The translations under genes and the position numbers were made by a program. This document shows positions 1 to 14,919 of a stretch of 64,000 nucleotides of DNA, one piece after another (position 1 is the first letter of the stretch; every line of letters begins with the position of its first letter). This stretch comes from Chitinophaga pinensis (GTDB lineage Bacteria > Bacteroidota > Bacteroidia > Chitinophagales > CAMDFR01): NCBI GenBank assembly GCA_945897725.1, contig CAMDFR010000015.1, positions 1-64,000 of the forward strand, read 5' to 3'. The notes under the pieces were generated by a model that was given only the letters and a program-made list of their open reading frames with translations, was not told where the DNA came from and did not search any database.

Positions 1-618
1 ACGCCCGCGGATGATTCATCCGCGGGATAATTTAAAAGTTGCCGCCTAAAAACGGTTTTAATAATAGATTGATTGGTAGTTTTTATTGTGTTTTTTCCGA
101 ACGTCATGTAGGAATAAACACGCTCCCTTCAAATGAATAGCTTGAAGGGAGCATTACCATAAAATTAAAGCATGATATTGTTTCTATAAAGCCATGGAAG
201 CAGAAATGCCCGCGGATGATTCATCCGCGGGATAATTTAAAAGTTGCCGCCTAAAAACGGTTTTAATAATAGATTGATTGGTAGTTTTTATTGTGTTTTT
301 TCTGAACGTCATGTAGGAATAAACACGCTCCCTTCAAATGAATAGTTTGAAGGGAGCATTACCATAAAATTAAAGCATGATATTGTTTCTATAAAGCCAT
401 GGAAGCAGAAACACCCGCGGATGAATCATCCGCGGGATAATTTAAAAATTGCCGCCTAAAAACGGTTTTTAAAAATAGATTGATTTGGTAGTTTTTATTG
501 TTGTGTTTTTTCCTAAAGTCATATAGGAATAAACATGCTCCCTTCAAATGAATAGTTTGTTGGGAGCCATACCAAAGAGATGAATGCATGAAATTATTTC
601 TATAAAGCCATGGAAATA
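1..618. repeat. Tandem array of 205-bp units, three hairpins each
   Basis: Three near-identical units begin at 4, 209 and 414, an exact 205-bp spacing. Each unit opens with a perfect hairpin (arms CCCGCGG/CCGCGGG; 4-26, 209-231, 414-436). It then has a second hairpin (arms GTGTTTTTTCC/GGAATAAACAC, 88-121 in unit 1) and a third (arms GCTCCCTTCAA/TTGAAGGGAGC, 122-152 in unit 1). Units 1 and 2 differ at only a few bases; unit 3 has drifted, including in hairpin 3. The array probably continues left of the window, because the sequence starts just before a unit boundary. No convincing reading frame spans a unit on either strand. It could be a structured RNA, a tandemly duplicated 3' untranslated region, or a DNA-level repeat. 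Confidence 0.9.
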
Positions 619-621
619 AAA

Positions 622-699
622 ACCCGTAGAATTTGGTTCTGCGGGTAACTTTAAAAGGCCTACTTCAACATATTTCTTAAAGCCAAGGAAGCAAACCAT
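622..699. repeat. Degenerate fourth repeat unit
   Basis: After the third unit a diverged hairpin (arms ACCCGTAGAA and TTCTGCGGGT, 622-646) replaces the CCCGCGG hairpin. Then comes a shortened copy of the segment seen before each unit boundary (AAAGCCAAGGAAGC near 679-692, against AAAGCCATGGAAGC in the other units). This looks like the decayed right end of the array. Confidence 0.6.
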
Positions 700-733
700 C
701 CCGCAGTAGTCTACTGCGGGGTTTTTTGTTTTT
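700..733 (+). terminator. Rho-independent terminator closing the repeat array
   Basis: Perfect 10-bp stem (CCCGCAGTAG/CTACTGCGGG) followed by GTTTTTTGTTTTT on the + strand. It sits where the next repeat hairpin would be, so the repeat hairpins may descend from this terminator or the reverse. It would stop rightward transcription from the array before the leftward ABC transporter gene. Confidence 0.7.
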
Positions 734-742
734 ATGCGGAGC

Positions 743-2512
743 TTATTCTTCTTTTCTCTCTCCGATTTGTTGTCGCCACATGGCATAGTATAGTCCTTTC
801 TCAGCTATCAATTCCTCATGCTTGCCCGTTTCAATGATTTTACCTTTTTCTAAAACATAGATTTTGTCTGCATGCATGATAGTGGATAGGCGATGTGCAA
901 TCATTACTGTGATTTGATTTTTATTGGCCGAAATAGACCTAATGGTGCTAGAGATTTCCTGCTCTGTAATGGAGTCTAGAGAAGAAGTTGCCTCATCAAA
1001 GACAAATAAGTTTGGCTTTCTGAGCAAGGCTCTGGCAATCGAAAGTCTTTGTTTTTCACCACCACTAATCTTCATACCACCTTCTCCAATCACGGTATCT
1101 AGTCCATTTTCACTTCGCGCAAGTAAATTCTGACTAGCTGCTTTGTTTAGGACATCAAACATTTCTTCGTCCGTGGCTCTTGGATTAACAAAGAGTAAAT
1201 TTTCTCTAATAGACCCCGAAAAAAGTTGGGTATCCTGTGTAACGAATCCAATTTGCTTTCTTAATTCATCTATATCGATATCTGCCGATCTAATATCATT
1301 ATAATAAATATGTCCATCCTGTGTATCATACAAGCCAACTAAAAGCTTCACAAGAGTCGTTTTACCTGCACCAGAAGGTCCTACGAAGGCAACTGTTTCT
1401 CCTTTGTTCACAACAAAGGAAATGTTCTCAAGTGCCTTAGTCTTTGCTGTTCTATGTTTAAACCCGACATTGTTAAATTCCATTTTGTTGAGATAATCAA
1501 CAGCAATAGGATTATCGGGTTTAGGCTCAATAGGAGCTTCTAAAATTTTATTAAAATTAAACAAGGATGCTTCTGCTTCTCTATAAGCAATAATAACACC
1601 ACCAACTTCTTGCAACGGATTAAAAATAAAAAAGGAATAGAATTGAAAAGTGATGATTTGTCCCAAAGTAAGATGTTCCTTAAACAACATGTACAATAAG
1701 GTGAAAAGGATGGTTTGACGTAAAAAATTTACAAAGGTACCTTGGATGAATGTTACACTGCGTATGCTTTTCACCTTGTCTAACTCTAATTTTAAAATCT
1801 TTAGCAAGGTCAAATTTAATCGTTTTGTTTCTTGCACCGTAAGTCCCAAACTTTTGATTAGTTCTATATTACGAAGACTTTCAGTCGTGCTACCTGCCAA
1901 TAAATTGGTTTCTCTAACAATTTTTGTCTGTACTTTTTTTATTTTTTTTGACATAAAAAAAGTCACGAAAGCAAGAATGGTGCTTGCTAAAAAATAAATA
2001 GGTATGAGTGGTGGATATATTTTGAAAGCGACAATACTCACAAATATCAATCCTACAAATGCACTGAATAAAATGTTAATGGAAGAGCTAATGAGTTTTT
2101 CAACGTCTTGTCTCACTTTCTGTATAATATTTAACGTTTGTCCACTTTGCTTATCTTCAAACTCCTGAAATGATTGTTGTAACGAATGCCTTAGTCCATC
2201 AGAATAAATGTCTGCTCCCATTCTTTGTACCACTACACTATTGGTATAATCTTGAAAGGCCTTGGCTATTCGACTTATCATGGCAACACCCAATAGCAAT
2301 GAAATGGCCTTGATAACTCCCCAAACAAACTGACTTACATTTCTCGCACTTCCATCAGAAAAAGTGAAAGGATGTTTACCTAAGTCATCTATGATATATT
2401 TCCCCAGGATGGTGGGGTCTAGTAGTGAAAAAATTTGACTTATGGCCGCTAATAATAATGTAATAAAGACAAGTAGCTTGTACTTTTTTAGGTAGATATA
2501 TAATAACTTCAT
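743..2512 (-). CDS. ABC exporter half-transporter (permease-ATPase fusion)
   Basis: A 589-residue protein with an N-terminal six-helix exporter membrane domain (about residues 1-320) and a C-terminal nucleotide-binding domain. The ATPase motifs are complete: Walker A GPSGAGKTT, signature ISGGEKQRLSIAR, Walker B LFVFDEATSSLD and switch His in MIAHRLST. This is the MsbA/ABCB layout of a homodimeric inner-membrane exporter. The substrate cannot be told from sequence; lipids, peptides or drugs are all possible. It faces away from the lipid/pigment-type operon at 2639 and shares the intergenic promoter region with it, so an export role for that product is conceivable but unproven. Confidence 0.92.
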   Translation of the reverse strand: MKLLYIYLKKYKLLVFITLLLAAISQIFSLLDPTILGKYIIDDLGKHPFTFSDGSARNVSQFVWGVIKAISLLLGVAMISRIAKAFQDYTNSVVVQRMGADIYSDGLRHSLQQSFQEFEDKQSGQTLNIIQKVRQDVEKLISSSINILFSAFVGLIFVSIVAFKIYPPLIPIYFLASTILAFVTFFMSKKIKKVQTKIVRETNLLAGSTTESLRNIELIKSLGLTVQETKRLNLTLLKILKLELDKVKSIRSVTFIQGTFVNFLRQTILFTLLYMLFKEHLTLGQIITFQFYSFFIFNPLQEVGGVIIAYREAEASLFNFNKILEAPIEPKPDNPIAVDYLNKMEFNNVGFKHRTAKTKALENISFVVNKGETVAFVGPSGAGKTTLVKLLVGLYDTQDGHIYYNDIRSADIDIDELRKQIGFVTQDTQLFSGSIRENLLFVNPRATDEEMFDVLNKAASQNLLARSENGLDTVIGEGGMKISGGEKQRLSIARALLRKPNLFVFDEATSSLDSITEQEISSTIRSISANKNQITVMIAHRLSTIMHADKIYVLEKGKIIETGKHEELIAEKGLYYAMWRQQIGERKEE

Positions 2513-13115: not shown

Positions 13116-13255
13116 AGTCTTATATTTTTTGAAGGCAATATTACTCCAATTGAAGCATATTTGGTAACAAATATGATTGTTTAAGCTATCTAACTAATCC
13201 TAATAATTTGATTATTATTGTTTTATTTCTTATCCTAAATCAATAAAAAATTTTT

Positions 13256-13263
13256 TAGCTTTG
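13256..13263 (+). promoter_or_regulatory. -7 promoter element for the OmpA gene
   Basis: TAGCTTTG matches TAnnTTTG, 18 bases before the ATG at 13282. An in-frame TTG at 13261 falls inside the element, so that longer start is rejected. Confidence 0.5.
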
Positions 13264-13281
13264 TGCTTAACATTTGCTAAT

Positions 13282-14919
13282 ATGAAAAAACATTTTCCTT
13301 TTATAGTAAGCCTTATCTTTTTGTTAAGCATAGGATTACTGCACGCTCAAGAATCTAAGTCTTTGACTGAGACACAACCTTTAAAAGACTCACTATATTT
13401 AAAGAAAAAAGATTATCAAAAGCAACTCGATTTTGAAAATTTTAAATATGCCTTTCCCGCAAAGAAAAAGAACATGTGGGCATTGGGAGTTAATGGAGGA
13501 TATGCATGCGTATTAGGTGATGTAGCCACTAAGTATGGATGGGGTGCTGGTCTTACCTTGCAGAAATCTCTAGGCCATGTTTTTGCCCTCCGATTGCAAG
13601 GAATGTACAGTCAAGTTACTGGACAAGATGTAAAATCGACGGGTCTTTCTAATCAGTTCAGAAATTTTAAATTAAATTTCTCTGCCTTAGAAGTGCAAGG
13701 GGTGGCCTATCTAAATAATATTAGTTTTTATAAGAGAAGTCCGAAGCTGCTTGTTTATGCATTGGGAGGTATTGGCTTATCTACTAGAAACACCAAAATG
13801 AATATGACTGATGATAACAATGCTGGTTCGATTTATGATTATACAGGTGTAGTTTCGGATCCTAAGTTTTTTACTAGGGGAGCAACCTACAAAGCAATTA
13901 AAAGCATCAATGATAAAACCTATGAAACTATTGCTACTGTTGAAAATACAACCTTTAGTGTGAAGAATACGCAAATCAATCCTTCTATCTCTCTTGGAGC
14001 AGGACTTCTATTTAAAGTTAGTAAAAGAATTGATTTGAATCTAGAACAAAAATTTTCTTGGAATAACGACAATCTGTTGGATGGAACAAAATTCACATCG
14101 GATTATGTAGCCACTTCAAAGTCTGATTTTTATTCATACACAAGCATTGGAGTGAACTTTAAATTAGGTAAAAGACAAGAACCACTCTATTGGGTGAATC
14201 CTATCGTAAGACCTTATGAGGACATCATGGAATTAAAAAGTAACTTATATAGTGGAGAATTCATGAAAGATGAAGATGAGGATGGAGTGGTTGATTTGTT
14301 CGATAAAGAATTGAATACACCAACTGCTACTATGGTGAATACACACGGTATTTCCTTAGATATAGATGGCGATGGTATCTCTGATAAATTTGATGACGAA
14401 CCTTTCTCCCCAAAAAGAGCTAGAGTAGATAAAAATGGCAGGGCTTTAGATAGCGATGACGATGGTGTTGTTGATGTGAATGACAAACAAAGTAATACAA
14501 AAGCAAATGCTCAAGCAGATGCCAAAGGACTTGAAATTCTATCAGGTGGATCTGGTATTGATCCTAAAATCTTTGATCCTGTATTTTTTGATTTGAATAA
14601 AGCAGATGTGAAACAAGAATTTTATCCTTCTATTTACAAAATAGCAATGTATATGCAAAGCAATCCATCTGCAATGGTAAAGGTATTCGGACATACAGAT
14701 AATAGAGCAAAAGATGACTATAATATCAAACTAGCTCAACGCCGTGCAGAGGCAGTGGTAAAAATCTTGGTGAGCGCATTTGGATTGAGCAAAGATAGAT
14801 TTGAGGTTGAGGCATTAGGCAAAGCTGATCCAGTGGTTCCAAACTTACCATTGAAATTTGATCCAGTGATCGAAGGTGGTCATTACTTGAATAGAAGAGT
14901 TACATTCGCTGTAAAATAA
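13282..14919 (+). CDS. OmpA-family outer membrane protein
   Basis: A 545-residue protein from the ATG at 13282, beginning with MKKHFPFIVSLIFLLSIG and a signal peptide ending near LHAQE. After it comes an outer-membrane beta-barrel-like region (about 60-310), then Asp-rich calcium-binding TSP3-like segments (DEDEDGVVDLFD, DIDGDGISDKFDD, DSDDDGVVDVND) and a C-terminal OmpA domain (about 430-545). The OmpA domain has FFDLNKADV, GHTDNRAKDDYN and LAQRRAEAV, the residues that bind diaminopimelate in peptidoglycan. It should tether the outer membrane to the cell wall. A perfect hairpin terminator follows 21 bases after the stop. Confidence 0.93.
   Translation: MKKHFPFIVSLIFLLSIGLLHAQESKSLTETQPLKDSLYLKKKDYQKQLDFENFKYAFPAKKKNMWALGVNGGYACVLGDVATKYGWGAGLTLQKSLGHVFALRLQGMYSQVTGQDVKSTGLSNQFRNFKLNFSALEVQGVAYLNNISFYKRSPKLLVYALGGIGLSTRNTKMNMTDDNNAGSIYDYTGVVSDPKFFTRGATYKAIKSINDKTYETIATVENTTFSVKNTQINPSISLGAGLLFKVSKRIDLNLEQKFSWNNDNLLDGTKFTSDYVATSKSDFYSYTSIGVNFKLGKRQEPLYWVNPIVRPYEDIMELKSNLYSGEFMKDEDEDGVVDLFDKELNTPTATMVNTHGISLDIDGDGISDKFDDEPFSPKRARVDKNGRALDSDDDGVVDVNDKQSNTKANAQADAKGLEILSGGSGIDPKIFDPVFFDLNKADVKQEFYPSIYKIAMYMQSNPSAMVKVFGHTDNRAKDDYNIKLAQRRAEAVVKILVSAFGLSKDRFEVEALGKADPVVPNLPLKFDPVIEGGHYLNRRVTFAVK

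Follow-up and report, generated by a model that had tools for sequence, protein, structure and literature searches.

A locally amplified array of terminator-like hairpins, most likely between the convergent genes of a secreted protein and an ABC exporter

The locus and its neighbouring genes

The window, meaning the whole stretch of 64,000 nucleotides analysed here, is contig C15 of genome G000, window position 1 being the first base of that contig. TRF detected only one array in the 64 kb, at 1-615, with a period of 205, 3.0 copies and 92% matches, which bears out the claim of the initial annotation that at least three tandem units are present (205, 205 and 210 bp). The three units lie head to tail over 1-620 and are followed on their 3' side by two more hairpin modules and an ABC exporter gene, with the following features:

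1-205, unstranded: unit 1, starting at the contig edge, its first 97 nt identical to the end of contig C36
206-410, unstranded: unit 2, with 3 differences from unit 1
411-620, unstranded: unit 3, diverged when compared with unit 2, 210 nt
4-26, copies at 209-231 and 414-436, unstranded: hairpin B1 (CCCGCGGATGA..), GC-rich, 10 bp, -18.3 kcal/mol on either strand
122-152, copies at 327-357 and 537-567, unstranded: hairpin B2 (GCTCCCTTCAAA..), the last copy with two broken pairs
181-199, copy at 386-404 and sister copy at 597-615, plus strand: weak hairpin A (TTTCTAT-AAAGCC-ATGGAA), at the junction of units 1 and 2
597-645, plus strand: module M3, an A hairpin and the B hairpin CCCGTAGAA..TTCTGCGGG
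673-727, plus strand: module M4, an A hairpin and the B hairpin CCCGCAGTAG/CTACTGCGGG, then a T-run; putative intrinsic terminator
743-2512, minus strand: ABC exporter of 589 aa (ABC_membrane and ABC_tran), convergent with the gene to the left of the array

Units 1 and 2 differ at 3 of 205 positions (98.5% identity), and unit 3 is separated from unit 2 by 18 substitutions, 4 insertions (T, T, TTG, G) and one terminal deletion. The exact 205-base spacing described initially holds for units 1 and 2 and fails for the 210-nt unit 3. All six frames contain stops and no frame is open across the array, 205 is not a multiple of 3, and the insertions in unit 3 shift the frame, in agreement with the earlier statement that no reading frame explains the repeat.

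Contig C36 (16,372 bp), also from G000, breaks off within an array unit, its final 97 nt being exactly those of window positions 1-97. The array runs past the left edge of the window, as had been supposed, with the window starting at a contig end, and three units are a lower bound because the assembly breaks inside the array. C36 carries the gene of a 1000-aa protein in which DUF7619 is accompanied by a type IX C-terminal sorting domain (PF18962), the latter pointing to a Bacteroidota-type secretion system, and the stop codon of this gene is followed after about 8 nt by the first A hairpin. On the other side, the stop codon of the ABC exporter lies about 15 nt past the T-run of the final terminator. 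In G001, a genome of the same genus, the genes for a TonB receptor, pdxJ, plsC and the ABC exporter are found on a single contig in an order matching that of G000, so that C36 and C15 are very probably neighbours, a join resting on the sequence overlap and on this gene order. Since a unit directly follows the stop of the 1000-aa protein gene on C36, and this contig overlaps C15 by 97 nt, the array most likely occupies the interval separating two convergent genes, the type IX-secreted protein reading rightward and the ABC exporter leftward.

We also considered whether the 97-nt overlap equals the k-mer of the assembler, which was not confirmed at two other contig ends probed; of these, the right end of C15 showed no overlap, and the left end of C36 (G000:C36:1-158) matches G000:C22:42918-43075 with 98% identity over 158 nt, either a second repeat or an assembly overlap.

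Hairpin modules and the origin of the unit

Each module consists of a weak hairpin A with the loop AAAGCC, a spacer of about 9 nt and a GC-rich hairpin B, the A hairpins being of the type TTTCYW(T)AAAGCCAWGGAA around their common loop. M1 spans each unit junction and M2 is the second hairpin pair of each unit, while M3 and M4 lie 3' of the array. Homology links M1, M3 and M4, whose pairwise alignment scores (M1-M3, M1-M4 and M3-M4) lie above those of all 1000 dinucleotide shuffles, and the B hairpin of M3, whose stem is likewise 10 bp long and corresponds in position to B1, differs from it by compensatory changes. M2 was evaluated as a further homolog of these modules and discarded, as its alignment scores (1000 shuffles) gave no support.

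The sequence at the junctions bears a signature of how the unit may have formed. The internal unit junctions read TTTCTATAAAGCCATGGAA, as in M3, and continue into the M1 body, and the leftmost module, on C36, reads TTTCCTAAAGCCAAGGAA before the M1 body. Because an M3-type A hairpin is joined to the M1 body at the junctions, unequal exchange at a repeat of 12-18 nt is the probable origin of the 205-bp unit. In the event we propose, the A hairpin of M1 and its near-identical counterpart in M3 would have exchanged unequally, or slipped, duplicating M1 and M2 together as the 205-bp unit.

Regarding termination, the stem of M4 at 698-722 and the T-run that follows fit the intrinsic-terminator consensus on the plus strand, so the last hairpin does look like the genuine terminator that had been annotated. 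A scan of positions 1-2700 returned 6 terminator-like sites, compared with 1.6 +/- 1.2 in shuffles; five were minus-strand hairpins within the array and the sixth was M4 on the plus strand. The tails of the array hairpins are modestly T-rich on the minus strand and AT-rich without a T-run on the plus strand, M4 being the only one with a clean plus-strand T-run. The minus-strand tails of B1 and B2 (TGTTTCTGCT, CATTTCTGCT and GTTTATTCCT) pass a loose terminator consensus scan, whereas their plus-strand tails do not.

Folding constraint and distribution

A single unit folds far better than its dinucleotide shuffles on both the plus (z = -6.6) and the minus strand (z = -6.0). The array is also the more stable per base, with a folding energy of -0.36 on the plus and -0.32 on the minus strand, against -0.03 to -0.25 for the plus strand of the other convergent gaps in the window, as delimited by a crude gene map. 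The initial annotation held that three hairpins are kept in each unit despite the drift of unit 3. This is right for the B1 stem, unchanged across units, and for the overall energy, since among random mutants bearing the unit-2 to unit-3 substitutions just 19 of 1000 on the plus and 21 of 1000 on the minus strand fold as well as unit 3; it does not extend to B2, which lost two adjacent pairs in unit 3 with no compensation, nor to pair retention, as the changes from unit 2 to unit 3 keep 53 of 59 pairs, a chance-level result (229/1000). The maintenance of the fold on both strands, the lack of an excess of kept pairs and the losses in B2 together indicate a mild constraint that is not strand-specific, and energy kept on both strands is what would be expected of a two-way terminator region.

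When six modules were compared (five from this locus and one from G001), 96.7% of the pair cells were standard pairs, and 4 pairs were doubly changed, with 7 doubly changed cells (2/500 shuffles), a count that leans towards structure because the structure was drawn from the same six sequences. Compensatory change has also been described in intrinsic terminators of the ordinary kind, conservation being higher where the terminators of convergent genes overlap (Safina et al. 2017, PMC5381666), and is therefore by itself no argument for a regulatory RNA.

These data bear on a possible, though rather unlikely, neutral explanation, in which the array is an intergenic minisatellite: termination would fall to M4, perhaps together with the first hairpin, and the 205-bp copies would be functionless by-products of recent slippage. 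The 98.5% identity of units 1 and 2, which implies that they are recent or homogenised, would agree with it, as would the uncompensated losses in B2, the chance-level pair retention and the scarcity of unit copies in the 60 relatives described below, but on either strand unit 3 folds more stably than some 98% of mutants generated at random, and compensatory change is seen between the B hairpins of one module and another, both of which speak against neutrality.

Searching with the unit in 60 genomes besides its own gave a partial match in one only, G001, and a DNA search of a plasmid collection gave no match. The covariance-model search in Bacteroidota anticipated by the initial annotation was run with a model of the module (R1), in place of the whole unit, in 26 genomes, its own and 25 relatives, and strong matches were confined to this locus and its ortholog in G001; weaker matches (E 0.01-1) in other places, several of which hit both strands of a single site, were regarded as generic hairpins. 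No Rfam family reached its gathering score (the highest score was 33.1 bits, where 65 are required). A pattern of the A hairpin followed by CCCG(C) occurred in 100 stretches of genome contigs and 15 of viral contigs, scattered across unrelated phyla, and none of the 25 most stable among 95 matches that were folded had a B hairpin like that of the array; given this scatter and the missing B hairpin, we take these matches as chance.

Beside the ABC exporter of G001, M4 and a partial M3 remain, only the last two modules being kept. In that genome, between the ABC exporter and plsC (G001:C15, L009 5458-5933), the secreted-protein gene is absent and a piece resembling a 461-aa gene is left. The arrangement suggests that G001 lost the secreted-protein gene by a deletion ending near M3. 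In G002 and G003 (L022 and L023), the two other genomes of this genus, the sequence 3' of the ABC exporter is different in each, indicating that this spot is variable in the genus.

The second option raised initially, a repeated structured RNA, would have a small RNA made from every unit, either transcribed from a promoter within the unit or processed from the 3' UTR of the secreted-protein mRNA. The strong plus-strand fold, the conserved AAAGCC loop of the A hairpin and a three-way junction around B2, tentatively predicted in the plus-strand fold of a unit seen in only three copies, are compatible with it. We consider it improbable, since consensus scans for promoters in the array matched neither TAnnTTTG (Bacteroidota-type -7) nor the sigma-70 type, Rfam gave no match at gathering score, strong module matches are lacking elsewhere in the genome and in the 25 relatives except at the ortholog, and the minus strand is about equally constrained. 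The discrete RNA of about 200 nt that had been envisaged is left unsupported by these results. Still more doubtful is a role for the A+B module and its conserved AAAGCC loop as an RNA element functioning in the 3' UTR, where it would bind a protein or be processed to small RNAs and where tandem amplification 3' of the type IX-secreted protein gene would have raised its dose; if true, this would be a new lineage-specific RNA motif.

A REP/BIME-like family of mobile palindromes, moved by a Y1 (RAYT-like) transposase, would account for intergenic palindromes in tandem, and Y1 transposase domains are present in the genome. However, the module occupies one locus only in G000 (assembly 84.7% complete), this absence of dispersed copies leading us to discard REP, and a different palindrome, CGCTCCTACGGAGC, clusters beside one Y1 gene, which makes this reading highly improbable. 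The CGCTCCTACGGAGC palindromes are spaced about 25 nt apart at G000:C14 ~13170-13320 (L167 ~1140-1330), just upstream of the Y1 transposase domain at C14:13530-13874, a REP/RAYT-like arrangement whose exact form was found only there. Equally hard to credit is a set of repeats encoding small peptides, type I toxin-antitoxin units for example. Such pairs can sit in tandem short intergenic repeats, and unit 3 offers a 66-aa minus-strand ORF, but this frame is not preserved in units 1 and 2 and the indels between units shift it.

A probable two-way terminator region and its relation to known systems

The reading we favour, with reasonable though far from full confidence, is that the locus is a 3' region common to two convergent genes, made of terminator-like two-hairpin modules, in which M1 and M2 were amplified and which would serve redundant termination or 3'-end stabilisation. 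Both genes would have their transcripts terminated and their 3' ends stabilised by several redundant hairpins, which may limit read-through from each gene into the opposing one. Of the options offered by the initial annotation, it is that of duplicated terminator/RNA segments which suits the position between convergent genes, the closeness to both stop codons and the terminator-like hairpins. We infer the contig join, the termination activity and the exchange event from sequence, and regard the region as probably a locally amplified, bidirectional terminator. The feature is real but fairly ordinary; its value is as a clear illustration of how exchange among its own short hairpin repeats could amplify a terminator region that lies between convergent genes, and as a case of how amplified hairpin repeats break assemblies.

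The array resembles intergenic minisatellites (variable-number tandem repeats) in its head-to-tail units of about 200 bp, recent duplication and the assembly break inside it, and differs from them in the hairpins of its units, the folding energy of which is retained better than expected at random. With REP/BIME elements (PMC12306157) it shares short intergenic palindromes, here in tandem, although REP/BIME elements are dispersed in the genome and the module is confined to one locus. Its features recall intrinsic (Rho-independent) terminators, including bidirectional ones (PMC5381666), with which it has in common the location between convergent genes, GC-rich stems, T-rich tails and compensated pairing, and from which it is set apart by its several modules, the extra weak hairpin with the AAAGCC loop and the partial tandem amplification.
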